A stretch of DNA of 48,367 nucleotides from Deltaproteobacteria bacterium (GCA_029552245.1 JAKPDW010000017.1:1-48367); one strand, 5' to 3'. Counted from the first letter of the stretch, positions 5,925-36,800 are shown. A program made the numbers and translations. Notes: generated from the sequence alone by a model not told the origin.

Positions 5925-6380
5925 ACATCCTGCCTGAATCGGACAAAAATGTGCCTTTCGTGCGGGGAGCCTGCTCGAGGTGAAGCCGGGGATGGAGATG
6001 ATGTTCGGGGGCGCTCGGCAGAGGAGGTTCGCCTCCTCGAGGACGGGATCATGAGCGGCCGGAAGCAGCGACGGGCCGGAACGACAAGGCCGCGATACGC
6101 TCCCAAACGGCCTGCGGCGGCGCGCAGCCGCGGATGTTCGGGGTGTGAGGGGGACGCAGGTGCCGATGCGCCGGGGGCGGCCAGATCCTCATGGTGGACG
6201 GGTCTCTTCCCGGTGTGACCGTTCTCGGCCGTGCCTGGTCGGGATGTTCACCAAGATTTTCGTGTGACAGGGATCTTTCCCCGGTTTGATGCGGCCGTGA
6301 CCCTCCCGCACCGACTCGTCCCTTGACCGGCGTCGTAGCGAGGGGTATCCATGGTGCCGAACTTGCATAGGGTGGGGATC
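5925..6380. other. Gene-free stretch before purF
   Basis: No supported gene. Two structures are visible. One is GGACAAAAATGTGCC at 5941-5955, an imperfect dyad resembling the element upstream of the glutamate synthase promoter. The other is a perfect seven-base hairpin with a TTCG loop at 6021-6038. A sigma-54-like spacing at 6352-6367 is judged too close to the purF start (see rejected items). Confidence 0.5.
6021..6038. terminator. TTCG-capped hairpin downstream of the YciI-like gene
   Basis: GAGGAGG (6021-6027), loop TTCG, CCTCCTC (6032-6038): a stable seven-pair stem with a UUCG tetraloop. There is no T-tract, so it may stabilise the transcript or assist termination. It lies about 100 bases past the YciI-like stop codon. 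Confidence 0.4.
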
Positions 6381-13838: not shown

Positions 13839-13945
13839 GGAGTCCTCCCTGTGTGTCGAGTTGCTGGCCGTTAGTCAAGATCCATGCCGTTTCCGGAAAA
13901 CATAGACATATCAGTATGATAGAAGGCAGAAGGGGATCTCCGGGT

Positions 13946-13976
13946 GTCTCAAAGGGCACAAAAATGCTTCAAATCG
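13946..13976 (+). promoter_or_regulatory. Putative activator-binding element A
   Basis: About 31 bases centred on GGGCACAAAAATGCTTC. Aligned with element B (16051-16080), 23 of 31 columns are identical. It lies about 85 bases upstream of the predicted start of the activator gene, a usual distance for a sigma-54 enhancer site. Confidence 0.45.
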
Positions 13977-14018
13977 GAAAAGTCGGCACCAAAATGAGTA
14001 ACGTGTGGACAAGACGCC

Positions 14019-14035
14019 TTGGGTGTTGTATTGCA
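14019..14035 (+). promoter_or_regulatory. Sigma-54 promoter of the activator gene
   Basis: TTGG at 14019-14022 and TTGCA at 14031-14035, with ten bases between GG and GC. The -12 element is perfect; the -24 element is TTGGGTG instead of TTGGCAC. The expected start of transcription is near 14046, leaving a 23-base leader that contains the GGAGAGGAAAGG ribosome binding site. Confidence 0.6.
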
Positions 14036-14068
14036 CCTCTGACAAGGTACCGGAGAGGAAAGGCGCCC

Positions 14069-15589
14069 ATGAGAAAGTTCAGTGTTTCGGACCTGCAGGT
14101 ACTCCACTCGATCGCCAAGGTCGTGGCCTCGACCATGGACTTGAGGACCCAGCTCGCCACGGTCCTCAACCTCCTGAGCACCGAGACCGGCATGAACCGG
14201 GGCATGATCTCCATACTCGAGCGCGACACCAAGGCCGCGGTCCTCGACGTGGCGCACGGCGTGGACATCGAGGGCCTCGACATCACCTATCTCCCGGGCG
14301 AGGGCATCACCGGCCAGGTGGCACAGACGGGAAGGCCCATGGTGCTGACCAACCTGGGGAAGGCCGCGGGTTTCCTTGACCGTACCGGAGCGAGGAGGCA
14401 CCTCGACCGGAGCGAGCTCGCCTTTCTCTGCGTGCCCATCGTCTACGACGAGAAGGTGGTGGGGGTCCTCTCCGCGGACAAGGTGGCCCGGGAGGTGGAC
14501 AGCCCGGAATACGAGCTCGCCCTGCTGGAGGAGGTCGCCGAGCTCACCGCCAAGGCCGTGCACATGAGGTCCATCGAGGAGGAGAACCGAAGGCTCAAGA
14601 ACATCATCGGACGGGAGAAGAGGCCGTCGGACGAGCTCGTCGGGAACTCCAGGACCATGAGGGAGGTCTTCGGGCTCATCTCCCAGGTGGCGGATTCCAG
14701 CACCACGGTGCTGATACACGGCGAGACCGGGACAGGCAAGGAACTCGTGGCCAGGGCCATCCACAAGAACAGCCCGAGGGCTCAGGGTCCGTTCGTCGAG
14801 GTGAACTGCGCGGCCATGCCTGACACGCTCCTGGAGAGCGAGCTCTTCGGCCACGAGCGGGGTGCGTTCACCGGAGCGAACATGCGCAGGCGCGGCCGTT
14901 TCGAGGAGGCCAACGGCGGCACCATCTTCCTCGACGAGGTCGGCGAGCTGTCCGCCGCGGCTCAGGCCAAACTCCTCAGGGTCATCCAGGAGAAGCAGTT
15001 CCAGCCTCTGGGCTCGAACGCCACGGTCAGGGTGAGCGTCCGCGTCATCGCCGCGACCAACCGTGACCTGGAGAACGCCGCCGCCTCAGGCACATTCAGG
15101 CCTGACCTCTACTACCGGCTCAACGTCTTCCCCATCTACCTCCCGCCGTTGCGCGATCGCGGCGGGGACATCATGCTCCTGGCCGACTACTTCGTCGAGA
15201 AGTACGCCAGGCAGCTCAAGAAGCCGGTCAAGCGCATCTCGACCCCGGCCATCGACCTCCTGCTCGCCTACCACTGGCCCGGCAACGTCAGGGAGCTGGA
15301 AAACTGCATCGAGCGCGCGGTACTCCTCTCCACGGGCGACACCATAGACAGCGTCCACCTGCCCCCCTCTCTCCAGATGAAGGCCGTCCCGGCACAGAGA
15401 AAGCGCCACGGCAAGCTCGAGACCCTGGTGGGCAGCTACGAGCGCTCCCTCATCGTGGACGCGCTCAAGGACGCGAAAGGAAACCAGAGCGAGGCGGCGA
15501 GACTCCTCGGGACCACCAAGCGCATCATCCAGTACAAGCTCGACAAGTACGGGATAGACCCGAAGAGGTTCAAGCCAAGGAAGCCGTGA
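14069..15589 (+). CDS. Sigma-54-dependent activator, NifA type (GAF-AAA+-Fis)
   Basis: A 506-residue enhancer-binding protein. A GAF domain covers about 18-165 ([14 protein letters not shown]), with a linker helix at 166-185. The AAA+ domain spans about 188-420 with Walker A GETGTGKE (218-225), the sigma-54-contacting GAFTGA loop (265-270) and Walker [10 protein letters not shown] (283-291). A Fis-type helix-turn-helix lies at 459-495 ([21 protein letters not shown]). There is no receiver domain and no partner kinase, so the architecture is that of NifA rather than NtrC. In NifA the GAF domain responds to 2-oxoglutarate and PII; the adjacent glnK fits such control, by inference. The ATG at 14069 has GGAGAGGAAAGG upstream. 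It probably controls the sigma-54 promoters at 7870, 14019 and 16230. Confidence 0.92.
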
Positions 15590-16229
15590 TGCAAGCCCGG
15601 GCCTGGAGCTGGCACCCTGGGCGCGGTCCGTGCGTCGAGGGGGTCGAGGCATCCCCCCGGTGAGCCGACGGCATCCCGGCCGCACCCGTCACACGGGCGC
15701 TGAGCGAGCCCCGATGGACCGGTTCACCCCAGACCCGCCGTCCTCGATTGTCGCCGAGCTGAAGAGGCCCCCGGCTTCTGCGTGACCCGCATCCCTGCGG
15801 ACCCATCCCACGGTGAGACTGCACGCACAAAGTGGTTTGTATCGCGGCCGGTTTCCCGTAAGCTGTGGTCTCGCCTGTCTTGCGAAGGCGGGTCAAGAAA
15901 CGTGATCGACACGAGGAGCCCTGCCGTCACCCCCAGGGACGTGCAGGCCCCCCCCCGGGGGATGGCCGGCCGCCATGGAGAATGCAGGGCTGCGAGCGGT
16001 CCTGCCCGGGCGCCGGGCCGATCATCGGGCGGGAAAGAGGCGCCCCGGGGGTTTCAATGGCACAAAAGTGTTCCATTTCGATCGTATGTGACGATAAGGT
16101 GCCACCTGGCACCGACCCCCGGCCATGAAGACCGGCGGACCCGTCGTACCGGGTCTTCCGGGCGTCATGCAAGCGCGCTCGCCTCTTTCTCGCTGGAGTA
16201 AAAAAGACGGCATCGGGGGTTTGGGTGCG
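15590..16229. other. Regulatory intergenic region upstream of the glutamate synthase operon
   Basis: No gene. The left part is plain GC-rich sequence with one short dyad, ACAAA-N4-TTTGT, near 15837-15850. The right part holds a cluster of inverted repeats (16051-16113) at about -205 to -140 from the predicted sigma-54 start, where enhancers normally sit. Confidence 0.6.
16051..16113 (+). promoter_or_regulatory. Cluster of inverted repeats (element B and two further dyads), candidate enhancer
   Basis: Three dyads lie side by side: TGGCACA-N4-TGTTCCA (16058-16075, one mismatch), ATCGT-N5-ACGAT (16081-16095) and GGTGCCA-N2-TGGCACC (16098-16113, perfect). The first lies within the segment shared with element A. 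Their distance from the sigma-54 promoter suits an upstream activating sequence. Which protein binds is unknown. Confidence 0.5.
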
Positions 16230-16245
16230 TGGCACGCTTCTGGCT
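16230..16245 (+). promoter_or_regulatory. Sigma-54 promoter of the glutamate synthase operon
   Basis: TGGCACG (16230-16236), four bases, then TGGCT (16241-16245), with GG and GC ten bases apart. The -24 element is a perfect consensus; the -12 element has one change (TGGCT for TTGCT). The predicted start of transcription near 16256 is just ahead of the GGAGGT ribosome binding site at 16268. Confidence 0.75.
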
Positions 16246-16282
16246 AATACCCCCACCGATCGAACATGGAGGTAGCAAGAAC

Positions 16283-17413
16283 GTGTGCCGTTTGTTCGCC
16301 ATCACGAGCGACGAACCCCTCTCCCCCATGACGGCTATACAGGCCCTGGACGTCATGAAGGAAGGACACGACGGGTCCGGCGTCGGGCTCCTGATGTCCG
16401 ACCTGGGGGGCGAGCTCGAACAGTTCAAGGGGTCGCCCATCCTCAGCGGGATCTTCACGCAGGAGGGCATCAAGAGGCTCGACAGGTACATGATGGAGCT
16501 CGGCCTCCTGACGAAGTACAAGATGTCCATAAGGCCGAACACGACACCCCCCAGGGGGACCCCGAGGCGTGACGTGTACCTCATACGCGTCTACGAGTAC
16601 CCGTACGAGTGGGAAGGGTTGAGCCAGGACGAGATCGAACAAAGGCTCTTGGCCATACGCCTGGATTTGAGGAGGATGGGCGAGGACGACGGATCCATGA
16701 TGGTCTTCTCGTTCTGGCCGGACACCATCATGATCAAGGAGGTGGGCGACCCGATGGCGGTGGCCGGCTACCTTGGACTCGACCGCCAGGCCTTAAGCGC
16801 CAGGATCATCCTCGCGCAGGGTCGCCAGAACACCAACTATGCCATCACCCTGTACGCGTGCCACCCCTTCTTCATCCAGGGGTACGCGACCATGACCAAC
16901 GGCGAGAACACGGCGTTCGTGCCCATACGAGAATACCTCGTGTCGAGAGGGTTCCCGGGATACACGGGTTACCAGTCCGACTCCGAGGTGTTCACCCACA
17001 TCCTGCACTACACGCACCGCAGGCTGGGCCTGCCGATCCAGGCGTACAAGCACGTCCTCACCCCGCTGAAGGACGAGGAGCTTGCCCGCCACCAGGACGC
17101 CAGGTTCCTCAGGGCCGTCAAGCATTCGCTCAGGTTCCTCACCATCGACGGGCCGAACTGCGTCATCGGGTGCCTCCCTGACAAGACGCTGTTCATGCTC
17201 CAGGACAGCAAGAAGCTCAGGCCCGGTGTCGCCGGCGGCCGCCCGGGGCTCTTCGCCTTCTCTTCCGAGATGTGCGGGCTCGATGCCGCGATCCCGGACA
17301 GGGACACGAAGAACGACCGTCAGCCCATGAAGTACGACCTCGTGAGCGTCGACGCATCGAGAACGGAGATACGCACATGGAACCAATGGGAACCCTTCGG
17401 CCGAACCTGCTGA
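16283..17413 (+). CDS. Glutamate synthase, glutaminase (GATase II) subunit
   Basis: A 376-residue protein starting (M)CRLFAITSDEPL. Removal of Met exposes Cys as the N-terminal nucleophile, the arrangement of the Ntn glutaminase domain of glutamate synthase when encoded separately (the archaeal-type split enzyme). EGHDGSGVGLLMSD, QGRQNTNYAITLYACHPF and the NGEN segment line up with substrate-binding parts of that domain. The GTG at 16283 is chosen because GGAGGT lies nine bases upstream and the Cys must be residue 2; a longer frame from 16229 would bury it and would start inside the sigma-54 promoter. The subunit releases ammonia from glutamine for transfer to 2-oxoglutarate by the next gene product. 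Its 3' end overlaps the next gene by 37 bases. Confidence 0.9.
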   Translation: MCRLFAITSDEPLSPMTAIQALDVMKEGHDGSGVGLLMSDLGGELEQFKGSPILSGIFTQEGIKRLDRYMMELGLLTKYKMSIRPNTTPPRGTPRRDVYLIRVYEYPYEWEGLSQDEIEQRLLAIRLDLRRMGEDDGSMMVFSFWPDTIMIKEVGDPMAVAGYLGLDRQALSARIILAQGRQNTNYAITLYACHPFFIQGYATMTNGENTAFVPIREYLVSRGFPGYTGYQSDSEVFTHILHYTHRRLGLPIQAYKHVLTPLKDEELARHQDARFLRAVKHSLRFLTIDGPNCVIGCLPDKTLFMLQDSKKLRPGVAGGRPGLFAFSSEMCGLDAAIPDRDTKNDRQPMKYDLVSVDASRTEIRTWNQWEPFGRTC

Positions 17414-19014
17414 GCCCGAGAGACCTCCCCTGGCGCATCGTCTGGGACAGGGACAGGTGCACCCTGTGCGGCAGGTGCACCGCCGCCTGCCCGACACGCT
17501 CGATCGAGCTCGGCGTCCACAGGAAGCGGTCGCTGGAGGTGAAGGCCGGCCTTGCAGTCAAGCCTTCGAACGTGTACGCCGTCTACCACGGCATAGACCA
17601 GGTGGCCCACGCGTCGAGGGTCTGCGTGGGCTGCGGTCTGTGCTCGCAGGTGTGCCCCAATGCAGCGATCTTCCCGGTGAGGAGCGAAGAGATCGACAAG
17701 GTGAGGTTCCATGTCTCTGAAGGGGGTGAGCCGAGGAGGAGGGGGGGCAGGAGGAACGACCCGAACAGCCTGCTCGACCGCATCAAGTTCATACGGATAT
17801 CGATGCTCACCGACCCAGCGCTGGACGCAGGCCGCCACGAGTTCGAGCTGAGGACGCTCCTCGGGAGGATCCCGCCCCCCGAGGACATGCTCGAAGAGGC
17901 CTCGAGGCCGGACGGGTGGGTGCCCCCCGTTCGCGAGGTCTACCCGCTCATGGTCGGCGGCATGTCGTTCGGGGCCTTGTCTCCCACCATGTGGGAGGGG
18001 CTCCAGATGGGGGTGGCGTACCTGAACGAGGAGCTCGGGATGCCCGTGAGGATATGCACGGGCGAGGGCGGGTGTCCGCCGAGGCTCCTTCGATCGAGGT
18101 TTCTCAAGTACGTCATCCTCCAGATCGCGAGCGGTTACTTCGGCTGGGACGAGATCCTCCACGCCTTGCCCGACATGAAGGAAGACCCCTGCGCCATAGA
18201 GATCAAGTACGGCCAGGGGGCCAAGCCCGGGGACGGCGGCCTGCTCATGTGGTACAAGGTGAACAGCCTCATCGGCGCCATACGAGGGGTGCCTGTCGGT
18301 GTGAGCCTCCCCTCGCCGCCCACGCACCAGACGAAGTACTCCATCGAGGAATCGGTGGCCAAGATGATCCAGTCCATGTACATGGCCTGGGGATTCAGGG
18401 TGCCCGTATACCCCAAGATCTCGGGTACGACCACGGCGCTCGCCGTCCTGAACAACATCGCGCGCAACCCGTACGCGGCCGCGTTGGCCATCGACGGCGA
18501 AGACGGCGGTACGGGCGCCGCCTACAACGTGTCCATGAACCACATGGGCCACCCGATCGCGAGCAACGTCAGGGACGCCTACCTCAACCTGGTCAGGATC
18601 GGCAAGCAGAACGAGATACCGATCGTGGCCGCAGGCGGTGTCGGGAAGAACGGCAACCTCGCAGCCAACGCGGCGGCGCTCATCATGCTCGGCGCGAGCG
18701 CCGTCCAGGTGGGGAAGTACATCATGCAGGCCTGCGGCGGCTGTGTCGGGTCCGAGACCGACAGGTGCAACATCTGCAACATAGGCCTCTGCCCGAAGGG
18801 GATAACCTCTCAGGACCCGAGGATATACAGGAGGCTCGACCCGGAGGACGTGGCGCAGAGGCTGGTGGACGTGTTCGTGAGCTTCGACGTGGAGCTCAAG
18901 AAGATCATGGCCCCCCTGGGAAGGTCCACGTCGCTGCCCATCGGCATGTCCGACGCCCTGGGCATCGACGACGAGGGGGCGGCCAAGAGACTGGGGATAC
19001 AGTATGTGGTCTGA
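17377..19014 (+). CDS. Glutamate synthase, FMN-binding synthase subunit with two N-terminal 4Fe-4S clusters
   Basis: A 545-residue protein. An N-terminal ferredoxin module has C28-C31-C34-C38P and C83-C86-C89-C93P. A TIM-barrel synthase domain from about residue 155 follows, with VGGMSFGALSP, IEIKYGQGAKPGDGG, PKISGTT and the FMN loop DGEDGGTGAA. A Cys cluster (CNICNIGLCPKGI) matches the [3Fe-4S] site of glutamate synthases. It condenses ammonia with 2-oxoglutarate and reduces the imine to glutamate. The extra ferredoxin module suggests that electrons come through Fe-S proteins rather than only from NADPH. ATG at 17377 has GGAG nine bases upstream; ATG at 17386 is also possible. It overlaps both neighbours, implying tight coupling. 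Confidence 0.93.
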   Translation: MEPMGTLRPNLLSPRDLPWRIVWDRDRCTLCGRCTAACPTRSIELGVHRKRSLEVKAGLAVKPSNVYAVYHGIDQVAHASRVCVGCGLCSQVCPNAAIFPVRSEEIDKVRFHVSEGGEPRRRGGRRNDPNSLLDRIKFIRISMLTDPALDAGRHEFELRTLLGRIPPPEDMLEEASRPDGWVPPVREVYPLMVGGMSFGALSPTMWEGLQMGVAYLNEELGMPVRICTGEGGCPPRLLRSRFLKYVILQIASGYFGWDEILHALPDMKEDPCAIEIKYGQGAKPGDGGLLMWYKVNSLIGAIRGVPVGVSLPSPPTHQTKYSIEESVAKMIQSMYMAWGFRVPVYPKISGTTTALAVLNNIARNPYAAALAIDGEDGGTGAAYNVSMNHMGHPIASNVRDAYLNLVRIGKQNEIPIVAAGGVGKNGNLAANAAALIMLGASAVQVGKYIMQACGGCVGSETDRCNICNIGLCPKGITSQDPRIYRRLDPEDVAQRLVDVFVSFDVELKKIMAPLGRSTSLPIGMSDALGIDDEGAAKRLGIQYVV

Positions 19015-21376
19015 CAGAGATGCCTTTCCCGTGACACCGGGCGGCGACTGCACCGTGTTCATTCAAGGAAGGGACGCCAACGGCAGGGTCGACTCCCGCA
19101 TCCTCGAGGAACGCATACAGGAGGCCGTCAGGCAGGGGTGCACGAAGATCGAGGTGCAGGCCTACGGGCAGCACGGGATCGGAGGAAGGCTGTGGTTCAC
19201 CGGGGGGTCGCACGTCAAGGTCGACGTGTTCGGCCATCCCGGCCAGCGCGTGGGCGCCATGGGTTCGCCTTTCACCACCGTCGAGGTGCACGCTCCGGCT
19301 TCCGACGACGTGGGGTGGCTCAACGCAGGCGCGACGATCATCGTCCACGGAGACGCCACCAACGGTGTCGCCAACGCCATGGCCCAGGGCAGGATTTACA
19401 TCGCCGGCGACATAGGCGCCCGCGGGATGACCATGACCAAGCACAACCCGCGCTTCGACCCGCCCGAGCTCTGGGTGTTGGGCGGGACAGGCGACTCGTT
19501 CGCGGAGTTCATGGCCGGAGGGATCGCCGTGGTATGCGGCATCGACTCCCGCTCCAAGGAAGGCTACATACTCGGGCACCGGCCGTGCGTGGGCATGGTC
19601 GGCGGCAAGATCTTCTTCCGGGGCCACCAGAAGGAGATCAGCGACGCGGATGCGGTGTTCGTCAGGATCACCGACGAAGAGTGGGACTGGCTGAGGTCCG
19701 GCCTCTCCAGGTTCCTGAAGGCCATCGGCAAGGAGTACCTCGAGGAGGAGCTCACGCACGACAGGTCCGCCTGGGAGCTTGTCGTCGCCCGCCGGCCCTC
19801 GGAGAAGCGGACCAGGGACAGGATCCCCATGGGGCGTTTCCGGAAGGAGGTGTGGGACAGGGAGCTGGGTCCCGGGGGTCTCATCGGTGACATCTCGAAG
19901 GTCGATTCCTCCCGCATCGGTGTGATCGAGACCGGGGAGCTCAGGCGGTTCGTCCCGCACTGGGAAAACGAGAGCGCCATGTCACCGTGCCAGGCTGCGT
20001 GCCCCACGGGCATCCCGGTGCAGAAGCGCTGGTCGCTGGTAAGGATGGGGGAGATCGAAAAGGCGGTGGACCTCGCGCTCGCATACACCCCCTTCCCGGC
20101 CACGGTTTGCGGTTACCTGTGCCCTAACCTGTGCATGGAAGCGTGCACGCGCCGGGCCAAGGGCATGACGCCCGTGGACACGTCCGTCCTGGGCAGGGCG
20201 AGCATCGAGGCCAAGGATCCATCCCCATCGCCCCCCTCGGGGAGGAAGGTGGCGATCATCGGAGGGGGGCCCGCAGGCCTGTCCGTGGCCTGGCAGTTGT
20301 GGATGAAGGGCCACGACCCCGTGGTGTTCGACAGGGATGCACGCCTGGGGGGCAAGATCCGCGACGTGATACCGTTCAGCAGGATCCCGAAGGAGGTCTT
20401 CGACCGGGAGTTGCGGCGGGTTGAGGAGAAGATCACCCGCGTGAGGCTCGAGGATCCCTTCTCCGAGCAGCTCTTCGAGGACATCGTGAACAGGCACGAC
20501 TTCACCGTGATCGCCGTGGGAGCCAACGACCCGCGAACGCTGAGCGTCAAGGGGGCACGGAGAACCATCGCGGCTCTTGACTTCCTGAGGGCTGCCAAGA
20601 GAAACAAGATGAAGGTGAAGGGGAACGTGGTCGTGATAGGAGCCGGCAACGTCGGGTGCGACGTGGCGACCGAGGCCTACAGGCTCGGCGCGTCGAGCGT
20701 GACGCTCGTGGACATCCAGAAGCCGGCCTCCTTCGGGAAGGAACGGGAGGCGGCCGAGGCGCTCGGGGCGAAGTTCGTGTGGCCCGTGCGCACCGAGCGG
20801 ATCACGGACGACGGCGTGGTCCTGTCCGACGGGTCGACGATCCCGGCCGACATGGTCGTGGTCTCCATCGGGGACACCCCGAACCTGGAGTTCCTCCCGG
20901 ACACGATCGACACCGAGTCGGGGATGATCAGGGTGGACGAGCGCTACAGGACGTCCCGCGACCGCGTCTATGCCATCGGCGACTGCGTCAGGCAGGGGCT
21001 CATCACGGACGCCATCGGCGCCGGCAGGATCGTGGCATCCGACATCGATGCGCGGCTCAAGGGCGAGGACGCCACCTTCGACCGCATGCCCTCGGTCGAC
21101 GTCGCCAGGATCAGGCTGGAGTACTACGAGCCGCAGGCCCTCACCGAGCATGACGACCTCGCGTCATGCGCCCAGACGTGCGCGTCCTGCGGTCTCTGCC
21201 GCGACTGCGGCATGTGCGAGGCCGTCTGTCCCACACAGGCGATCTCGAGGAGGGAACTTCAGGGAGGCCTCTTCGAGTACGCGGCTGACCCGGGAAAGTG
21301 CATAGGATGCGGCTTCTGCGCAGGCGCCTGCCCCTGCGGGATCTGGGAGATGAGGGAGAACGACCCTCTTGTATAA
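19004..21376 (+). CDS. Glutamate synthase GXGXG domain fused to GltD-type oxidoreductase and a C-terminal ferredoxin
   Basis: A 790-residue fusion. Residues 1-215 are the GXGXG beta-helix that normally ends GltB (GGDCTVFIQGR; VQAYGQHGIGGRLWFTGG; AQGRIYIAGDIGARGMT). Residues ~320-385 are the GltD N-terminal Fe-S region (CQAACPTGIPVQ; CGYLCPNLCMEAC). Residues ~413-700 are the two-dinucleotide-binding flavoprotein, with FAD motif AIIGGGPAGLS at 417-427, NAD(P) motif VVIGAGNVGCDVA, and YAIGDCV. The last ~60 residues are a ferredoxin with CASCGLCRDCGMCEAVCP and CIGCGFCAGACP. It passes electrons to the synthase subunit. The ATG overlaps the previous stop by 11 bases. The usual gltB and gltD boundaries are thus redrawn: part of each lies in one polypeptide. 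Confidence 0.92.
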   Translation: MWSDRDAFPVTPGGDCTVFIQGRDANGRVDSRILEERIQEAVRQGCTKIEVQAYGQHGIGGRLWFTGGSHVKVDVFGHPGQRVGAMGSPFTTVEVHAPASDDVGWLNAGATIIVHGDATNGVANAMAQGRIYIAGDIGARGMTMTKHNPRFDPPELWVLGGTGDSFAEFMAGGIAVVCGIDSRSKEGYILGHRPCVGMVGGKIFFRGHQKEISDADAVFVRITDEEWDWLRSGLSRFLKAIGKEYLEEELTHDRSAWELVVARRPSEKRTRDRIPMGRFRKEVWDRELGPGGLIGDISKVDSSRIGVIETGELRRFVPHWENESAMSPCQAACPTGIPVQKRWSLVRMGEIEKAVDLALAYTPFPATVCGYLCPNLCMEACTRRAKGMTPVDTSVLGRASIEAKDPSPSPPSGRKVAIIGGGPAGLSVAWQLWMKGHDPVVFDRDARLGGKIRDVIPFSRIPKEVFDRELRRVEEKITRVRLEDPFSEQLFEDIVNRHDFTVIAVGANDPRTLSVKGARRTIAALDFLRAAKRNKMKVKGNVVVIGAGNVGCDVATEAYRLGASSVTLVDIQKPASFGKEREAAEALGAKFVWPVRTERITDDGVVLSDGSTIPADMVVVSIGDTPNLEFLPDTIDTESGMIRVDERYRTSRDRVYAIGDCVRQGLITDAIGAGRIVASDIDARLKGEDATFDRMPSVDVARIRLEYYEPQALTEHDDLASCAQTCASCGLCRDCGMCEAVCPTQAISRRELQGGLFEYAADPGKCIGCGFCAGACPCGIWEMRENDPLV

Positions 21377-22767: not shown

Positions 22768-22806
22768 ACCCTGCGGCGCGGGGCGATAACCCTTGCGCCG
22801 CAGGGT
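22768..22806 (+). terminator. 12-bp hairpin between glnA and carA
   Basis: ACCCTGCGGCGC (22768-22779) pairs with GCGCCGCAGGGT (22795-22806); GGG and CCC in the loop can add inner pairs. No T-tract follows. It could reduce read-through into carA or stabilise the glnA end of the message. Confidence 0.55.
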
Positions 22807-22864
22807 GACGAACGAAGACGTGAGGATCTTCCACAGGGGTTCACCAAGCGGATTCAAGGGGTGC

Positions 22865-24028
22865 ATGAAGCTCGCAGGATACGATACCAGGCCCGGCGTG
22901 GTGGTGCTCGAAGACGGCACCGTCTACAGGGGCCGGGTATTCGCCGGTGAGGGCTCGCGCTTCGGCGAGGTGGTCTTCAACACCGGGATGACGGGATACC
23001 AGGAGATCCTCACCGACCCCTCCTACAAGGAACAGATCCTCGTCATGACGTATCCCCTCATCGGGAACTACGGGGTCAACTCCGCGGACGTGGAGTCGTG
23101 GGGTATCCATCTCGAGGCGTTCGTGGTGCGGGAATACCAGCGCAGGCCGAGCAACTGGCGCATGGAGAAGACCCTCGCGGATTACCTGTGCGAGCACGGT
23201 ACCATAGGGATCGAGGGGGTCGACACGCGGGCCCTCACGCGACGCATCCGCACCCAGGGTGCCATGCGCGGGGTCGTCTCCACGGAGGTCGATCGCATCG
23301 ACGACCTCGTGGACAGGGTTCGGGCCTACCCCGGTCTCGTCGGCCGGGACCTGGTCAGGGACGTGACCGGCGCCGGGGCCTACGTGTGGAAAGACGGCGA
23401 GAAGGCGGGGATGGAAGCGGCACGAGGCCGATCGGGGCTGCCGCGCGTGGTGGTGGTGGACTGCGGGGTGAAGCTCAATATCCTGCGTCTCCTCGAGGAA
23501 CGGGGGTGCGAGGTCGTGGTGGTCCCTGCCCACACCTCGTCGGGAGCGATCCTGGACCTGGCGCCCCAGGGGGTCCTCCTGTCGAACGGCCCCGGCGACC
23601 CGGCCCCGTTGGGCTACCTCGTCGAGACCGTGAGGGGGGTACTCGGCAGGGTACCCGTGTTCGGCATCTGCCTCGGGCACCAGATACTCGGACAGGCGCT
23701 GGGCGGCTCCACGCTCAAGCTCAAGTTCGGGCACCACGGCATCAACCACCCGGTGAAGAACCTGGCGACGCTCAGGGTGGAGATCTCGTCCCAGAATCAC
23801 GGGTTCGTCGTCGATCCCGCGACGCTGCCCAAGGACGTGGAGATCACCCACGTGAACCTCAACGACATGACGCTCGAGGGGATGCGCGCCAGGGACCTCG
23901 ACGCGTTCAGCGTCCAGTATCACCCCGAGGCGGCTCCCGGACCGAGGGACTCGAACTACCTGTTCGAGGAGTTCATGGCGAGCATCGGGTGCGGGCCGAG
24001 GCCGGGGACAGACCCGCATCTTGCCTGA
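22865..24028 (+). CDS. carA: Carbamoyl-phosphate synthase small subunit
   Basis: A 387-residue glutaminase subunit supplying ammonia to CarB for carbamoyl phosphate, used in arginine and pyrimidine synthesis. The N-terminal domain is typical (VVLEDGTVYRGRVFAGEG; GEVVFNTGMTGYQEILTDPSY). The C-terminal class I amidotransferase has the nucleophile elbow VFGICLGHQILG and the His-Glu pair in QYHPEAAPGP. The ATG at 22865 places VVLEDG where it lies in other CarA proteins and has AAGGGGTG just upstream; a frame from 22793 adds 24 unlike residues. carA and carB are separated here by the GFAT-like gene, which is unusual. Confidence 0.96.
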   Translation: MKLAGYDTRPGVVVLEDGTVYRGRVFAGEGSRFGEVVFNTGMTGYQEILTDPSYKEQILVMTYPLIGNYGVNSADVESWGIHLEAFVVREYQRRPSNWRMEKTLADYLCEHGTIGIEGVDTRALTRRIRTQGAMRGVVSTEVDRIDDLVDRVRAYPGLVGRDLVRDVTGAGAYVWKDGEKAGMEAARGRSGLPRVVVVDCGVKLNILRLLEERGCEVVVVPAHTSSGAILDLAPQGVLLSNGPGDPAPLGYLVETVRGVLGRVPVFGICLGHQILGQALGGSTLKLKFGHHGINHPVKNLATLRVEISSQNHGFVVDPATLPKDVEITHVNLNDMTLEGMRARDLDAFSVQYHPEAAPGPRDSNYLFEEFMASIGCGPRPGTDPHLA

Positions 24029-24122: not shown

Positions 24123-27100
24123 ATGGTAGACAAGGTTCTCGCCTTCCTGATGCCCACGCTGGCCCTGCTCTCCATCGGCGTCCTTTTCCTCGCCGCATGC
24201 AAGGCGGTCTCCTTCCTCGGACGCGCCGGAGGATGGACGGTGAGGGTGGGTGTTGACCCGAGAAGGGTGCGGGGACCGTCCGTCGTCCTCTTCCCCGTGT
24301 GCGAAGACCTCTTGTGCTGCGGCCTGGCCGGCTTCGTCGTGGTGAACAGGCCCACAGGCAAGGCCGGCGACCCCGAGCGGGAGATCTCGGAGCTGGTCGA
24401 ACAGGTCTGCTCTCGAGGGCTCTCGGCACCGGGCGCCCCCGGCATGGATCCTTCGCGGTACCTGAGCCCCGAGAGCCTCGAGAGGCTGGACGCCGGGCTT
24501 ACCCGCCTGAAGCAGGACACCTCGGCTCAACACCGGCTGTTCTCGTCGGGTGGGCTCGACCGCTTGAGGGCGGTGTCGGACAGGCTCAAGACGTTCGTGG
24601 AGCACGAGGAAGACGCCCTCGAGAGGGCATCGGGGAGGCTCAACGTCAGGGACACCGAGGTCATGGCCGAGCGTCTCGTGAGACTCAAGGATGTCGACTG
24701 GGCGCTCAGGGAGGATCTCATCGCGGTCCACGACAAGGTTCGTGCGCTGGCGGGCCCGCTGATGTACGAGGATCCCGCCTACTACGCGAGGTTCCAGAAG
24801 ATCAACGCGTGCCTGAACGCACTGGACCGGCTCGAGGTGAGAGGACGGGACTCTGCGGGGATCCAGGTCCAGGTGTGCTACCCGGACCTGGAGTCCGTGG
24901 CCCTGCTTCGTCACCGGTTGACCCAGGACGCCTTGTTCGAGGAGTTCGTTCAGAGGTCAACCCCCATGGAACTCAAGAACGGCTCCATCAGCCTTCACGG
25001 CCCGGTGATATCCTTCACGTACAAGACCGCGCAGATCACGGGCGAGCTCGGCGAGAACACGAGGAAGCTCAGGGCGTTCATAGGGTCCGACGGCGTCCTG
25101 AAGGCGGCCCTGTCCATAGACTGCGTGACTGAGACGTATCTCGCGCACACGCGGTGGGCCTCGGTCGGCGCCATCAACGAGACCAACTGCCACCCCGTCA
25201 ACAACCACTGCCTTGACGCGCCCGTCGAGGAACTCGGGGGGTTGCCTTCGCGATGCAGGGATTATCCTCGCTACGGGAAGGGTGCGTGGACCGTGAGCGC
25301 GGTCTTGAACGGCGACATCGACAATTTCCAGGGCATAAGGAACAGCCTCGAGGACCTGGGGAGGGTGCTGAGCACCGAGGTCACCACGGACACCAAGGCC
25401 ATACCCCTCCAGGTGGAGCGCTTTCTCCAGGAGGGTGACACCCTCGCCGAGGCGTTCAGGAAGGCGGTGAACTCCTTCGAGGGTTCCCACGCCGTAGCGC
25501 TCCAGAGCAACATCGAGCCGGGAAAGGTGTTCCTGGCGCAGAGGGGGAGCGGCCAGACCATCTACGTGGGCCTGCTCGAAAACGGCTACATGTTCGCCTC
25601 GGAGATCTACGGCCTCGTGGAGGTCACCTCCAGGTTCATCAAGATGGACGGGGAGACCCCGCGGGTGCCCGGGGACACCTCGACCCAGGGGCAGATCTTC
25701 ATCCTGTCCGACGGCGCGAGCGGGGGGGTCGACGGCATCGAGGCCATGTACTATGACGGGCACCCCGTCACCCTGTCGGAGAAGGACATCCAGACCGCCC
25801 AGATAACCACACGGGACATCGACAGGGGGGAGCACCAGCACTTCCTCATAAAGGAGATACTCGACGCGCCCTCCTCCATCCGCAAGACGCTCAGGGGCAA
25901 GTACCGCAGGGTCTCGCCGGGGAAGGTGGTGTTCAACCTCGACGAGACGGTCGTGGATCCGCACACCAGGGAAATGCTCGTGAGAAACGAGATACGCAAG
26001 ATATTCGTCGTGGGCCAGGGAACCGCGGCGGTCGCCGCGAGCGCGGTCGCGGAGGCCCTTGGTGTGTACCTGCGGGGTGCGGCCGTAACGGTGGGGTCGC
26101 GCAAGGCGACCGACCTGAGCGGGTTCATGCTCGACGACGACATGTACGACACGCTCGTGATCGCCATCACGCAGTCGGGCACGACCACGGACACCAACCG
26201 TGCGGTGACCCTGGCGCGCCAGAGGGGGGCCAGGGTCATGGCCATCGTGAACCGCAGGCAGTCGGACATCACGACCAAGGTCCACGGCGTGTTCTACACG
26301 AGCGACGGCAGGGACATCGAGATGTCCGTCGCGTCGACCAAGGCCTTCTACTCGCAGATCGTCGCCGGGTACGTGCTCGCCCTGTTCTTCGCCCAGCAGC
26401 TCGGCACCCTCGAAGACGGGGCGATAGCGGAGGCGCTCGCCGCGCTCGAGCAGGCGCCCGACCTCATGATGGAGGTCATCGCGCAGCGGGAGGCCATAAG
26501 GAAGACCGCCTGGGACGCGGTGCGGAGGAAGCAGTACTGGGCGGTGGTGGGCAGCGGCGTCAACAAGGTCGCCTCCGACGAGGTGCGGATAAAGCTCTCA
26601 GAGCTCTGTTACAAGACCATTTCCTCGGACATCATTGAGGACAAGAAGCACATCGACCTCTCGTCCGAACCCCTCATCCTCGTGTGCGCATCGGGGAGCC
26701 CGCCCATGGTCCTCGACGACATCGTGAAGGACGTGGCGATCTTCAAGGCGCATGCATCCACCGTGGTGGTGATCGCAGACCGGGGGGCGGGGGAGAGTTT
26801 CGAGAACGTCGCCGACGCCGTCATCGAGGTGCCGGGGGCAGACTTTCCCCTCTGCGTCATCCTCAACACCCTGGCCGGCCACATCTGGGGCTACTATGCG
26901 GCGCTGAGCCTGGACGAGCAGGCAAGGACCTTCAAGCGTTTCCGGACCGAACTCCAGGAGAGGGCCAAGGAGCACAAGAGGCTCCAGTACACCGTGTACG
27001 AGAGCGTCAAGGACAGGGAGCTCCACCGCCTCGTCGACGCGTTCGAGGCCGATTTCAAGGCGTGGAGGGTGAAGGGCGAGCTCGCTTCTCTGAGCAACGA

Positions 27101-27905
27101 CGTCGCCTCGGACATCACGCTCCTCCTCAAGTATGCCAGGGGCAAGCTCCCGGTCGAGGACTTCTGGATGGAGTTCGAGGGAAAGCGCGTTTCCTCGTCC
27201 CCGCTCGACATGCTCGACCTCACGCTCAAGAGGGCCGTGGAAGAGCTCTCGAGGCCCGTGGACGCAATCCGACACCAGGCGAAGACCGTCACCGTGGGCA
27301 CGAGCAGGAAGGTGGAGGTCCCCAAGGGGCCCGTGTTCTCGGTGCTGGTCGAACTCGGGTTCTCCCCGGAGAACGTGAGGGCCCGGGAGGTGCTCTTCCT
27401 CAAGAGGCTCCAGGGCGCGATCGTCAGGATCAAGGGCTACACCCTCTACCGGGTCGAAGGGTTGGACGAGGCGGGCATGCCCGTGGAGGCTACCACGCTC
27501 TCCATCGTCAGGCGCGAGGGCGTGTGCGCGTCCATGCCGTCCAGGTACGAGCGCGCGGCCCCGCTCAGGGGGACCAAGAACACCATAGTCAGGACCCGGA
27601 AGGTGTACGCCGGTATCGGGCGGTCGGACAACGCTTCCATCGTGGTCATCCCCCTGGAGGACGCGCGCCGCGTCATCACCCACCTCCTCCTTCTGCAGGT
27701 GGACTTCGACGAGCACCTCCAGACGGCCAGGAAGAAGGATGTTCTCGGCGTCAAGCTCAACGACATCGTGAACCTCGTCAACGAGTACGACATACCCTGG
27801 AAGGACGAGTACCTGGAACACTTCGATATCAAGGTGTTGCTCGGCGAGGACGTGAACGACATCGTGGGGGAGATCGTCAAGGTGCACAAAGAAAGGGGTC
27901 GGTAA
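24123..27905 (+). CDS. Giant GFAT-like glutamine amidotransferase/SIS protein with N-terminal membrane helix
   Basis: A 1260-residue relative of glutamine-fructose-6-phosphate aminotransferase. Residues 5-27 form a hydrophobic helix. The glutaminase motif CCGLAGFVV places the Cys-Gly at 66-67, after a long pro-segment. About 170 mostly helical residues then precede LEVRGRDSAGI (238-247), where GFAT has about 25. AHTRWASVGAINETNCHPV (341-359) and LNGDIDNFQGIR (395-406) continue the glutaminase fold. A first SIS domain has ITQSGTTTDTNRAV and SVASTKAF (735-742), and a second starts near 805. The GELKHGP and PRNLAKSVTVE signatures are changed to IEDKKHIDL and DEQARTFKRFRTELQE. The last ~320 residues match nothing I know. 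It probably makes an amino sugar or related product at the membrane, but the substrate is unclear. Confidence 0.8.
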   Translation: MVDKVLAFLMPTLALLSIGVLFLAACKAVSFLGRAGGWTVRVGVDPRRVRGPSVVLFPVCEDLLCCGLAGFVVVNRPTGKAGDPEREISELVEQVCSRGLSAPGAPGMDPSRYLSPESLERLDAGLTRLKQDTSAQHRLFSSGGLDRLRAVSDRLKTFVEHEEDALERASGRLNVRDTEVMAERLVRLKDVDWALREDLIAVHDKVRALAGPLMYEDPAYYARFQKINACLNALDRLEVRGRDSAGIQVQVCYPDLESVALLRHRLTQDALFEEFVQRSTPMELKNGSISLHGPVISFTYKTAQITGELGENTRKLRAFIGSDGVLKAALSIDCVTETYLAHTRWASVGAINETNCHPVNNHCLDAPVEELGGLPSRCRDYPRYGKGAWTVSAVLNGDIDNFQGIRNSLEDLGRVLSTEVTTDTKAIPLQVERFLQEGDTLAEAFRKAVNSFEGSHAVALQSNIEPGKVFLAQRGSGQTIYVGLLENGYMFASEIYGLVEVTSRFIKMDGETPRVPGDTSTQGQIFILSDGASGGVDGIEAMYYDGHPVTLSEKDIQTAQITTRDIDRGEHQHFLIKEILDAPSSIRKTLRGKYRRVSPGKVVFNLDETVVDPHTREMLVRNEIRKIFVVGQGTAAVAASAVAEALGVYLRGAAVTVGSRKATDLSGFMLDDDMYDTLVIAITQSGTTTDTNRAVTLARQRGARVMAIVNRRQSDITTKVHGVFYTSDGRDIEMSVASTKAFYSQIVAGYVLALFFAQQLGTLEDGAIAEALAALEQAPDLMMEVIAQREAIRKTAWDAVRRKQYWAVVGSGVNKVASDEVRIKLSELCYKTISSDIIEDKKHIDLSSEPLILVCASGSPPMVLDDIVKDVAIFKAHASTVVVIADRGAGESFENVADAVIEVPGADFPLCVILNTLAGHIWGYYAALSLDEQARTFKRFRTELQERAKEHKRLQYTVYESVKDRELHRLVDAFEADFKAWRVKGELASLSNDVASDITLLLKYARGKLPVEDFWMEFEGKRVSSSPLDMLDLTLKRAVEELSRPVDAIRHQAKTVTVGTSRKVEVPKGPVFSVLVELGFSPENVRAREVLFLKRLQGAIVRIKGYTLYRVEGLDEAGMPVEATTLSIVRREGVCASMPSRYERAAPLRGTKNTIVRTRKVYAGIGRSDNASIVVIPLEDARRVITHLLLLQVDFDEHLQTARKKDVLGVKLNDIVNLVNEYDIPWKDEYLEHFDIKVLLGEDVNDIVGEIVKVHKERGR

Positions 27906-27966: not shown

Positions 27967-30900
27967 ATGCCCAAGAGAGACGACCTGAAGAAGATACTCA
28001 TCGTGGGGAGCGGGCCCATAGTCATATCGCAGGCATGCGAGTTCGACTATTCGGGGGTGCAGGCCTGCAAGGCGCTGCGGGAGGAAGGGTACGAGGTGGT
28101 CCTCGTGAACTCGAACCCCGCCACCATCATGACCGACCCCGGGATGGCCGACCGCACCTACATCGAACCCATCACGGCCGACTACCTCGAGCTGATCGTA
28201 GCCAGGGAGCGGCCGGACGCGATCCTGCCGACCCTCGGGGGGCAGACCGGCCTCAACGTCTCCGTGGAGCTCGCATCCAGGGGCGTCCTCGAGCGCTACG
28301 GGGTGGAGATGATCGGTGCGAGGCCCGAGGTCATACACCGCGCAGAGGACAGGGAGCTCTTCAGGAAGGCCGTGGAAGAAGCGGGCCTCAGGGTCCCCAG
28401 GAGCGGCTTCGCCAGGAGCATGGACGAGGCGTTCAGGATAGCCGAGTCGATCGGCTACCCCGTCATCATCAGGCCGTCCTTCACGCTCGGCGGCATCGGC
28501 GGGGGGATCGCGTACAACCCCGAGGACCTGGGCCGCATAGCCAAGGAGGGCCTCGACGCGAGCATGATCCGCGAGATCATGATCGAGGAGTCGGTGATCG
28601 GGTGGAAGGAATTCGAGCTCGAGGTGATGCGGGACAGGGCGGATAATGTGGTGATCATCTGTTCCATCGAGAACGTCGATCCCATGGGGGTCCACACGGG
28701 GGACTCCATCACGGTGGCCCCGGCGCAGACGCTCACCGACGTGGAATACCAGCAAATGAGGGACGCGGCCATACGCGTCATGCGAGCCATCGGGGTCGAG
28801 ACCGGCGGGTCGAACGTCCAGTTCGCCGTGAACCCCTCAAACGGCGAGCTCGTGGTGATCGAGATGAATCCCAGGGTCTCCAGGTCCTCTGCGCTCGCAT
28901 CCAAGGCGACGGGGTTCCCCATAGCCAAGATCGCGGCGAAGCTGGCGGTCGGGTATACCCTGGACGAGATCCCCAACGACATCACCAGGGAGACCTTCGC
29001 GTCGTTCGAGCCCGCCATCGACTACTGCGTGGTGAAGATCCCCAGGTGGACCTTCGAGAAGTTCCCCGAGACCGCGGACGTCCTCACCACGTCCATGAAA
29101 TCCGTCGGGGAGGTCATGGCCGTGGGCAGGACGTTCAAGGAGGCGCTCAACAAGGCGGTGAGGTCGCTTGAGATAGGGTCCTACGGACTGGGCTGGCCGA
29201 GGACGATAGAGACACCCGAAGACAAGAAGGCGGTGGTCAAGGGTCTGAGCTACCCCAACTCGAAGCGCCTGTTCTCCATGGCATGCGCCCTCAGGTCGGG
29301 GTTCACGGTCGAGGACGTCTCCAGGCTCACGGGCATCGACCCCTGGTTCGTGGGCCAGATCGAGGACCTCGTGAAGGCGGAGCGGGTCATCCGGGATGCG
29401 GGCCTGGAGGAGGGGGTTCTCCTGGAGGCGAAGAGGATGGGGTTCTCGGACAGGTACCTGGCGGCGCTGTGGGACACCACGGAGGAACACGTGCGCTCCG
29501 AGCGGCACCGGCTCGGCGTCACCCCTGTGTACAAGCTGGTGGACACCTGCGCCGCCGAGTTTGAGGCGTACACCCCGTACTACTACTCCACCTACGAGCA
29601 GGAGGACGAGTCGAACCCGTCTGGCGCCAGGAAGGTGATCATCCTCGGGAGCGGCCCGAACCGGATAGGGCAGGGCATCGAGTTCGACTACTGCTGTGTT
29701 CAGGCGTCGTTCGCCCTCAGGGAATCGGGGTACGAGAGCATCATGATCAACTCGAACCCGGAGACCGTGAGCACCGACTACGACATCTCGAGCAAGCTCT
29801 ACTTCGAGCCGCTCACCCTGGAGGACGTGCTCCACGTCGTCTCGAGGGAACGACCCGAGGGGGTGATCGTCCAGTTCGGCGGGCAGACGCCGCTCAACCT
29901 CACCAAGGGCTTGGCGGACGCCGGCGTGAAGATCCTCGGCACCCAGCCCGACGCCATAGCCAGGGCCGAAGACCGCAGGCTGTTCCTCGAGATCGTGAAC
30001 AAGCTCAGGCTGAAGCAGCCGCCGAGCGACACGGCCACGACCACGCGCGAGGCCGTGGCCATCGCGGACCGCATCGGGTACCCCGTGCTGGTCAGGCCCT
30101 CGTACGTGCTCGGGGGGCGTTCCATGGAGATCGTCTACGACAAGGACGCGCTGGAGTCTTTCATGGCCGGGGTGCTCGAACTCTTCCCCGACAACCAGAT
30201 CCTCATAGACAAGTTCCTGGAGGACGCCCTCGAGGTGGACGTGGACTCGATCTGCGACGGGTCCAGGTGCGTGATCTGCGGGGTCATGGAACACATAGAG
30301 GAGGCCGGTATCCACTCCGGCGACTCGTCATGCGTGCTTCCGCCGCCCACGCTCGACAAACGCGTCGTTGCACGCATAGAGGACCAGACGAAGAGGATAG
30401 CACTCGAGCTCGGCGTGAGGGGCCTCATGAACGTGCAGTTCGCGGTCAAGGGGTCCGATGTCTATGTGCTCGAGGTCAACCCCAGGGCCTCGAGGACCAT
30501 CCCGTTCGTGAGCAAGGCGGTCGGGGTGAGCTTCGCGAGGCTCGCGACCAAGGTCATGCTCGGCTGTACCCTGGACGAGCTCGGCCTGAGGAGGAAGCGC
30601 ACGCCCAGGTACGTCTCGGTGAAGGAGTCCGTGTTCCCGTTCGCGAGGTTCCCGGGCATCACCGTGGCGCTGGGCCCCGAGATGAAGTCCACGGGCGAGG
30701 TCATGGGGATCGACTCGAGTTTCGAGCTCGCGTTCGCCAAGGCGCAGTGTTCGGCCGGGTTCGAGCTGCCCACCTCCGGCAACGTGTTCGTGAGCGTCCA
30801 CGATGCATACAAGGGCCGTGTGGTGGACATCGTGAGGTCTTTCTCGGACATGGGTTTCGGCATCATCGCGACGACCGGTACCGCCTCGTACCTTTCCGGC

Positions 30901-31191
30901 AAGGGCGTTCAGGTCGACACGGTGCTCAAGGTGAGCGAGGGGAGGCCGAACGTGGCGGATGCCATCATGAACGGGCAGATCCAACTCGTGATCAACGTCA
31001 GCCTCGGCAGGAGGCCCACGATGGACGCGGCGCTCCTCAGGCGGCACGCGATCCGCGCTCAGGTCCCCTACACCACCACGATCGCCGCCGCCAAGGCCAT
31101 CGCCAGAGCCATAGGCGTCCTGAAGAAGACCACGCCGGGGGTGAAGACCCTCCAGGAGTACCACGCCAGGACCTCGAAACCGAGAACTTGA
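27967..31191 (+). CDS. carB: Carbamoyl-phosphate synthase large subunit
   Basis: A 1074-residue enzyme of standard length with two homologous ATP-grasp halves. The first half starts [23 protein letters not shown] and includes [26 protein letters not shown] and [13 protein letters not shown]. The second starts [20 protein letters not shown] and includes [20 protein letters not shown] and [12 protein letters not shown]-terminal methylglyoxal-synthase-like allosteric domain ([36 protein letters not shown]) follows, where UMP or ornithine act in other species. It uses CarA-derived ammonia, bicarbonate and two ATP. It follows the GFAT-like gene by 61 bases in the same direction. Confidence 0.97.
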
Positions 31192-33708: not shown

Positions 33709-33897
33709 TACAAATCATCGAGACAACGGACGTTTTGTGAAAAGAACAGCGGCGAAACCGGCTCGTTTTTATAGGAATGAAAAGCCCCGATTGCCGAGTG
33801 TGGGATTGATCCATGCATCGTGTGCAGGAAGGTCCCGCTTGCAGGATCCGCTTCATAGGCCGCTGGACAGCGAAGTCATGAGAGGGTGAGGGATACC

Positions 33898-36800
33898 ATG
33901 TCGAGGCTGGCATACAGAAAAGTAAAGATAATTTCCGCAGTTGTGGCGGTGAGCTTGTGGTGCCTCGGGTCGACGGCTAACGCCGTGGCCTTCGCGCCCT
34001 TGGACGCCGCGGAGGCGAGGAACAGGTGCGCCGCCGTGGACCAAGAGGCGTATCCCGATGCGGACCTGGTGGTCGTGGCGAGGCAGACCCACGTGGAGTA
34101 CCAGGTGGACGGCACGTCCGAGGAATGGTTCGAGCAGTACGTCAAGGTCCTCACCGAGAGGGGGAGGCGAGATGCCTGCACGGTCTCGTCGTCGTTCACG
34201 CTCCCGTACAACACGACCGTCTTCCAGCTCGTCGAGGTGATCTCCAGCGACGGTTCCGTCAGGAAGGTCGACATCGAGAAGAACGTGAAGGAGACGATCG
34301 ACGCGTCCCAGATGGCGTCCAACATCTACAACCCCAACGACAGGCTCCTCCAGGTGACCATCCCCGGGCTCGTCGTCGGGGACACGGTCCACTTCATAAC
34401 CAAGGACGATTTCGTCAAGGCCCGGGTGCCGGGGACCTTCAGCGACTACGTCACGTTCGAGGAGACCAACCCCATCCTCTACGCGCAGTACACGGTCGTG
34501 GCGCCCCCTTCGCTCCCGCTTGCGGCCATGGCGCTCAGGGACGAGGTGGAGGGGACCGTCACCTTCGTGAAGACGACCGAGGCGGGCAAGATCGTGTACA
34601 GGTGGGTGGCAAAGAACGTCCCCATGGCCTTTGCCGAGCCCGAGATGCCGCCCATGTACACCCAGGTCCAACGCCTGCTCGTGAGCACCATAGCCGACTG
34701 GAGGGAGATATCGAGGTGGTATTGGCGCCTGTCCATGCCACACATACGGGCCACGACCCCGGCCATGGCCGCCGAGGTGAAGAGGCTCACGAAGGGCAAG
34801 GCCACGAGGGACGAAAGGATCAGGGCCGTCTTCTTCTGGGTCTCCAGGAACATCAGGTACCTCGGGATCACCGCGGAGAGCGAGGCGCCTGGGTACGAGC
34901 CCCACCCTGCATCCATGACCTACGACCGCCGCACGGGCGTGTGCCGGGACAAGGCCGCCCTCCTGGTGGCGATGCTGAGGCTCGCCGGCTTCGAGGCCTA
35001 CCCCGTGCTCATCATGAACGGCCCGAAGAAGGACCCGGAGGTCCCCCAGCCGTTCTTCAACCACGCGATCGCCTGCGTCAGGAACAAGGACGGCTCCTAT
35101 CTCCTCATGGACCCGACGGACGAGAACACGAGGGAGCTCTTCCCCTCTTACCTCGGCAACCAGAGCTACCTGGTGGCAACGCCCTCGGGCGAGACGCTCA
35201 TGACGAGCCCGGTGGAGAGCGCGCTCAAGAACACGATGCGCATATCGACCGAGGGCGCGGTGGACGCCATGGGGAGGCTGTCGGCCAAGACGTCGCTCAC
35301 GTTCGGCGGCGTCAACGACAACGCCTACCGGGGGCACCTCATGAGGCTCTCCTCCCGGGAGAGGAGGCTCTTCTTCGAGAAGACGCTCCTGAGGGCGGTA
35401 CCCGGCGCCGTCCTCGAGGCCTTCGAGCTCAGGCCCGGTGATCTCGCCGACGTCTCGAGGCCCCTCGAAGCACACCTTTCCTTCAAGGCCGAAGGGTTCC
35501 TCGTCAGGGGGACGGGGAAGGCCGCACTGCCTCTTTTACGCTTCGGGGGCGCCGTGGGCGTCCTGCCGTATGTGACGCGGGGCATGGGGTTGAGAGAGCG
35601 CAGGTTCCCGTACGTGACCGAGACCACATGCGCCGTTGACGAGAGCCTCAGCCTTCGACTGGACCCGTCGTTGGGGGTTGCGGAGGTCCCCGGGGGGGTG
35701 GAGTCCAGGAGGTCCGACGGGTGCAGGTGGAAACGGGAGATGAGGGTGCAGGGGCAGAGGCTCGAGATGAGGGACACGCTCAGCATGGACCTCACCGAGT
35801 ATTCCCCCGATGCCTACCGCGCTCTCCAGGAGGTGCTCGCGGCCCAGGAGCGCTCCGACCGTCTCCTGCCCACCTTCAAGACGGCTCGGGCCATCGACGC
35901 AGCCGATGCATGGTACACGGGCTTCGCGAGCGACGCGGTGGTCCTGTCCGAGAAGTCCACCGTGACCGTCGGGGAACGGGGGGTTGCGGCGAGAACGGTC
36001 GATCGCACGGTGAAGGTGCTCACCTATGCGGGCATCAGGCGTTCCAGCGAGCTGAGGATACCGTACAACCCAGCCTGGGAAGAGGTGCGGGTAGAGGAGG
36101 CCTTCGTCAGGTCGCCCAAAGGCGCCGTCCACACGATCGATCCCCGTGAGATCAACGTGATGGACCAGCCCTGGGCGGGGACCGCACCCAGGTACCCCGC
36201 AGGGAAGATACTCGTGGTGAGCTTCCCGGGGCTCGAGGAGGGCAGCACCATATCCTACAGGTACGCATTCACGAGCAAGGGCTGGAACGAACCTGCGTTC
36301 GTCGAACCCTTCCAGGCGATGGAGCCCGTCGGGGACAAGACCGTCCGGGTCGAGTGCCCACCCGGCGTGAACCTGCGCGTGATCACGGCGGACAACGGCT
36401 TCGGAGCGACACGCGCCTGGCGGCCGTTCCCGAGGGGGTTCGTGTCCCTCTCCCAAGGCGAAGACAGGGGCATGGAGGTAAAGATCCTGCAAGCGAAGAA
36501 CGTCCCTCCCGCGATGAGGGAGGAGATGCTCCCCGCCCTGTACGCCTTCGCGCCGTCCATGGCCGTCGCCTCGATGCCGACCGAGATGTTCGCCGCGAGC
36601 ATGAGCGAGATCCTCGCACGCCAGGCCTCAGAGAGGAGCTTCGCCTCGGCCAAGGCCAGGGAGATCGTAAGGGGCCTTTCGGGTGACCGGGAGCGTATCG
36701 AGGCGGTGTGGAGGTACGTGGCGAGGCACGTCCGTCTCGTGGACATCCCCCTCGCGGAGAGCCTGCCGCACATGATGAGCGGTGCGGATACCACGCTCGC

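Follow-up and report, generated by a model that had tools for sequence, protein, structure and literature searches.

In a stretch of 48,367 nucleotides from a Deltaproteobacteria bacterium (GCA_029552245.1 JAKPDW010000017.1:1-48367; hereafter the window), an open reading frame of 1260 codons from its ATG (24123..27905, + strand) encodes a protein that resembles glucosamine-6-phosphate synthase (GlmS, or GFAT) at about twice the usual length, with its cysteine nucleophile at residue 66. What does this giant protein make, and how could a cysteine buried in this way serve as an N-terminal nucleophile? GlmS, which opens the amino-sugar pathway of the cell wall and supplies the precursor for peptidoglycan and lipopolysaccharide, is almost universal, with a usual length of about 600 residues. 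We conclude with good confidence that the giant protein is a divergent, enlarged GlmS and the sole GlmS of its host. Its divergent lineage, which replaces canonical GlmS in part of the Desulfobacterota, carries an extra domain of possibly regulatory function and probably a propeptide. About one eighth of the sampled Desulfobacterota genomes have no GlmS by the curated model, and the giant family fills this gap; it is also a natural test of two beliefs, namely that GlmS needs a free C-terminal tail and that GlmS has no propeptide.

A first reading of the window, made from the sequence only, had pointed out the unusual length of this open reading frame, which proved to be real. Full-length homologues with 52-67% identity occur in most genomes of the window organism's family, and those with 32-41% identity come from a second family of its class and from other parts of the phylum. 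The gene family is therefore long-lived, and a frameshift, assembly or fusion artefact is ruled out by the full-length homologues. Its members are 1130-1280 residues long.

An alignment of 17 giant proteins with four canonical GlmS from the same phylum has 79 columns that are invariant in all 21 sequences. In the glutaminase half they include Cys1 of mature GlmS (C66 of the giant protein), R26 (R240), the HTRW loop (342-345), the N-G pair (396-397) and the glutamine-site Asp (D423). In the isomerase half they include T302 (T634), Q348, S349 and T352 (684, 685 and 688), K485 (K824), E488 (E827) and H504 (H843), and in the C-tail A602 (A1053) and K603 (K1054). The known catalytic residues of GlmS are Cys1 for the glutaminase and Glu488, His504 and Lys603 for the isomerase (PMC9272926). 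All of them are present, as are the R/Q-loop residues: the double-SIS half carries E827, H843 and K1054 in these positions, and the glutaminase half has every glutamine-site residue, its Cys being N-terminal only if the preceding leader is removed. Cys66 (24318..24320, +) is also invariant in alignments of 25 and of 56 homologues, the latter named A3. The sequence-only reading had judged the C-tail motif PRNLAKSVTVE altered because a helical insertion of about 110 residues displaces it. We found it further on, as IRHQAKTVTVG at residues 1049-1059, within an internal C-tail that spans residues 1044-1062 (RPVDAIRHQAKTVTVGTSR; 27252..27308, +). The stretch 1047-1062 reads DAIRHQAKTVTVGTSR, K1054 is the equivalent of Lys603, and AKTVTVG is identical in all 56 proteins of A3.

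The structure of the mature chain (residues 66-1260) was modelled with AlphaFold2 from 56 sequences, giving a mean predicted local distance difference test (pLDDT) score of 87.8 and a predicted template modelling (pTM) score of 0.76. In this model the mature chain is folded as GlmS/GFAT. It superimposes on E. coli GlmS (PDB 2j6h) over 579 residues with a Z score of 39.1 and a root-mean-square deviation (rmsd) of 3.7 (Foldseek template modelling score 0.79 of the target), and on human GFAT-1 (PDB 6r4e and related entries), with which it shares the two-domain fold, over about 590 residues (Z 39.5). The glutaminase domain (24318..25808, +) matches PDB 1xff over 237 of 239 residues at 1.8 Å (Z 30.6). 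As had been read from the sequence, the Cys-Gly pair at residues 66-67 is followed by a helical insertion that splits this domain: the alignment with canonical GlmS places it between strand 1 and helix 1, at residues ~78-227 (24354..24803, +), and the model shows it as helices. The isomerase half (residues 566-933; 25818..26921, +) contains two SIS domains, recognized by Pfam and matching GlmS isomerase domains with Z 37-40, which hold T634, Q684, S685, T688, K824, E827 and H843. A second helical insertion, identified from the alignment and the model, links it to the C-tail (residues ~934-1043; 26922..27251, +). The pLDDT falls below 50 in two stretches only: the C-tail (mature residues 985-998) and the loop that precedes His504 (mature residues 767-776). 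The low confidence in the C-tail is unsurprising, since the GlmS C-tail becomes ordered on sugar binding, according to a title cited in PMC7000685.

Compared with canonical GlmS (TIGR01135; E. coli, PDB 2j6h and 1jxa), the giant protein thus shares the order glutaminase-SIS-SIS-C-tail, all catalytic residues and the predicted fold. In contrast, it is twice as long, only 24-25% identical over the structural alignment, and below the TIGR01135 cut-off; it adds a leader before the Cys and the two helical insertions, and its C-tail is internal, with an extra C-terminal domain behind it.

The distribution of the giant protein was analysed in 394 Desulfobacterota genomes, used for both counts, and in the best 80 of at least 534 relatives in a genome collection. 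A genome was scored for canonical GlmS by a match above the TIGR01135 cut-off and for the giant protein by a match to the profile of its C-terminal part, and the two lists were paired genome by genome through the genome handle. The giant protein occurs in 50 genomes and canonical GlmS in 319: 49 carry the former alone, 318 the latter alone, one carries both and 26 neither (Fisher p 4e-42, a value that ignores shared ancestry). In two families, f35 and f51, some species have one kind and other species the other, a pattern that points to replacement and not just to a single ancient split. The single genome with both kinds (G210; C29:22065-22709) belongs to family f50. Two genomes of the window's own family (G012 and G016, 94-99% complete) yielded neither; a third form, an assembly gap or amino-sugar uptake are possible explanations.

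The sequence-only reading had called for a search for a normal glmS in the same genome. A TIGR01135 search of this genome, which is 99.3% complete, gave no second match to the whole of GlmS; the remaining matches, one of which is the purF of the window, cover the glutaminase half only. NagB was not found there either. The genome does encode GlmM (582 bits) and MurA (577 bits), and its GlmU looks split over two contigs: a uridylyltransferase half of 337 residues (C83:9468-10439, L120) and a 413-residue protein resembling the acetyltransferase half that adjoins glmM (C47:58801-60822, L121 and L124). A gene of this GlmU-acetyltransferase-like type lies within 3 kb of the giant gene, upstream or downstream, in 27 of the 80 related loci; 26 of these 27 have it on the same strand, and 17 have it within 300 bp. 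One related locus (L050) encodes a 420-residue homologue of the 413-residue protein, with weak GlmU matches and no Pfam match. It also has a second, shorter GlmU-acetyltransferase-like stretch just upstream of the giant gene (L050:5638-5919), perhaps the remnant of an earlier adjacent copy. Taken together, the exclusion, the pathway genes and the GlmU-acetyltransferase-like neighbours single out glucosamine-6-phosphate synthesis as much the most likely function, and the giant protein very probably makes this product. In the proposed mechanism, the conserved N-terminal leader would first be removed from the precursor, which would free Cys66 to act as N-terminal nucleophile. Glutamine would then be hydrolysed by the glutaminase half, and the ammonia would pass to the two-SIS isomerase half. 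There, opening and amination of fructose-6-phosphate would be followed by isomerisation of the product to glucosamine-6-phosphate, with H843, E827 and K1054 as the catalytic residues, and GlmM, the split GlmU and MurA would take it further.

Several observations weigh against this identification. The giant protein scores 229.3 bits against a TIGR01135 cut-off of 418.05, and its C-tail lies at residues 1044-1062 of 1260, followed by about 200 residues, and not at the end of a chain of about 600; we have filed it apart from ordinary GlmS because of this score and this position. N- or C-terminal tags are reported to interfere with GFAT-1 (PMC7000685), whereas human GFAT2 tolerates a C-terminal His tag (PMC7948480). 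Both forms coexist in G210, and 26 of the 394 genomes contain neither. The GELKHGP loop is changed, as had been noted from the sequence, except for Lys503-His504, which are kept (KKH, 841-843). This loop and the C-tail are modelled at low confidence, and the active-site geometry is only predicted.

Alternatively, the protein could be a class II amidotransferase-isomerase that uses the GlmS mechanism on another sugar phosphate, glucosamine-6-phosphate being obtained from elsewhere. The long branch that separates it from canonical GlmS indicates deep divergence, and the alignment shows differences in the 490-510 loop and at several flanking positions. However, the near-perfect exclusion with canonical GlmS, the absence of NagB beside GlmM and MurA, the GlmU-acetyltransferase-like neighbours and the conservation of all listed sugar-site residues argue against another substrate, which we regard as unlikely. 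The proposal in the sequence-only reading of a new enzyme, or of one that no longer uses glutamine, is not supported either, as no known catalytic residue of GlmS is missing and the family replaces canonical GlmS across genomes. We did not find any paper on a large GlmS in Desulfobacterota in the literature searched, most subscription journals being outside its reach.

How, then, does Cys66 become N-terminal? Leaders in the family are about 34-65 residues long, and their last 34 residues align without gaps in 79 unique sequences. In the window protein this conserved leader, a candidate propeptide, spans residues 32-65 (24216..24317, +) and follows the pattern Y.G+....VP..SIVFFP.....L. up to the Cys. 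Counted back from the Cys, Pro at -8 is present in 99% of the leaders, Gly at -23 in 89%, Phe at -9 in 86% and Leu at -2 in 76%. Pooled over the same 79 leaders, the nonsynonymous rate pN is 0.18 against a synonymous rate pS of 0.44, which indicates purifying selection. The family also includes a leaderless clade of ten relatives, nine of which begin with Met/Val-Cys-Gly, while the tenth (L025) has an extension of at most six residues. Within the leader-bearing clade, one isolated protein (L096) starts with Met-Cys-Gly, a stop codon lying a few codons upstream. The root of the tree lies on a very long branch, and the tree requires the leader state to have changed twice. A translation start just before Cys66, without a leader, was considered and rejected as a general explanation: the leader is conserved and aligns gap-free, and position -1 is variable.

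A cleaved propeptide would be expected to look like this: a conserved leader with a constant spacing to an invariant Cys with which other family members begin. The buried Cys is thus best read as being exposed by propeptide cleavage, very probably, one of the two possibilities that the sequence-only reading had offered. The predicted arrangement recalls PurF and GltB, class II glutaminases whose N-terminal Cys is likewise preceded by a leader. The likeness concerns the presence of the leader and, for GltB, its size: the GltB leader has about 36-42 residues, close to that of the giant protein, whereas no leader was seen on the four canonical GlmS compared. Human GFAT-1 is not known to carry a comparable leader or C-terminal domain. 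Self-activation is described as a hallmark of N-terminal nucleophile hydrolases (PMC9140057). Position -1 of the leader has no conserved residue and cleavage is only predicted, so that the leader could in principle be retained and the enzyme act as an ammonia-dependent aminase, or as an isomerase devoid of glutaminase activity. We consider this very improbable, given that the Cys, the HTRW loop, the N-G pair and the glutamine-site Asp are invariant and that leaderless homologues, including the isolated one in the leader-bearing clade, place the Cys right after the start.

The sequence-only reading had also described the protein as membrane-tethered. A hydrophobic helix is indeed present at residues 5-23 (24135..24191, +), but it belongs to the window protein only. 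Among 75 leaders analysed for Kyte-Doolittle hydrophobicity with a threshold of 1.8, this protein alone reaches the threshold (2.48; next highest leader 1.59), and proteins of the same genus have no such helix. Two starts are plausible: the ATG at 24123, with GAGG 5 bases upstream, and an in-frame GTG at 24240, with GGAGG (24228-24232) 7 bases upstream, which omits the helix (24228..24242, +). Codons 1-39 have a coding-like G+C content at third positions (0.82), which favours the longer form. Whichever start is used, membrane tethering is not a property of the family. The earlier reading imagined a zymogen held in the membrane until cleavage releases and activates it, which is very improbable: the strength of the helix and the coding-like codons 1-39 speak for it, but the other 74 leaders, including same-genus ones, do without the helix, and downstream of the helix an alternative start is preceded by a good Shine-Dalgarno sequence.

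The C-terminal region, about 320 residues that had seemed unassigned, can now be divided. Its first part is accounted for by the second helical insertion and the catalytic C-tail; what remains is a separate, confidently predicted alpha/beta domain (residues 1064-1260; 27312..27902, +), for which profiles of Pfam, NCBIfam and PDB gave no match above noise. Modelled alone with AlphaFold2, residues 1060-1260 reached a pLDDT of 96.1 and a pTM of 0.90. The best fold match lies in the N-terminal ACT/PAS region of mL-GDH180, a large glutamate dehydrogenase from mycobacteria (PDB 7jsr; PMC8175468), whose residues 174-361 align over 165 of 201 residues with Z 9.7 and an rmsd of 4.3, followed by GAF, PAS and Cache domains with Z 5.6-7. 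In Foldseek, GAF domains appear near the top with a probability of up to 0.98, none at E <= 0.001. The model thus suggests, short of proof, a relationship to sensor domains of the PAS/GAF type. Like the giant protein, mL-GDH180 is a metabolic enzyme with proposed sensor domains (PMC8175468), although its matching segment is only 10% identical, its crystal structure is at 6.27 Å and its catalytic core is different.

The C-tail, which in canonical GlmS is a free chain end that closes the active site, is here joined directly to this domain, which is PAS/GAF-like by its predicted fold. As only about 10 residues separate it from the first helix of the domain, a moving domain could act directly on the lid, and the domain could therefore be well placed to control active-site closure. 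Human GFAT-1 is feedback-inhibited by UDP-N-acetylglucosamine within an ordinary GFAT chain (PMC7000685). We tentatively propose, as a possibility that we do not favour outright, a GlmS switched on by propeptide removal and controlled by a sensor domain behind its catalytic C-tail, a ligand opening or locking the Lys603 lid and the ammonia channel. Of the regulated sensor of the sequence-only reading, the presence of extra regions that could regulate the enzyme is supported, and the C-terminal domain may have a regulatory role. No GlmS with a sensor domain behind the C-tail and a propeptide was found in the literature searched.

The titles of the relatives, again among the best 80 of at least 534, are mostly Deltaproteobacteria, Syntrophales or Desulfobacterales, a few being labelled Proteobacteria, Pseudomonadota or Thermodesulfobacteriota; the isolate Desulfatitalea alkaliphila is among them. 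A viral origin was considered, and no relative was found among the viral contigs searched. In the window, the giant gene lies between carA (22793..24028, +) and carB (27967..31191, +), as first described, in a cluster that also holds glutamate synthase, glnA and pyrG. It is thus located, in the window's lineage, in a nitrogen-assimilation and nucleotide cluster. The link to glutamine metabolism drawn from the carA-carB position is local to this lineage, however; in other lineages the giant gene adjoins the GlmU-acetyltransferase-like gene or pyrG. The window has no Rfam match, such as a glmS ribozyme. Upstream of glnA, the regions 6351-7778 and 13853-21376 contain purF, a GAF/sigma-54 activator and an iron-sulfur glutamate synthase. 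Shortly downstream of pyrG, the region 33886-37803 encodes a 1305-residue protein with a transglutaminase core and a DUF3857 domain.

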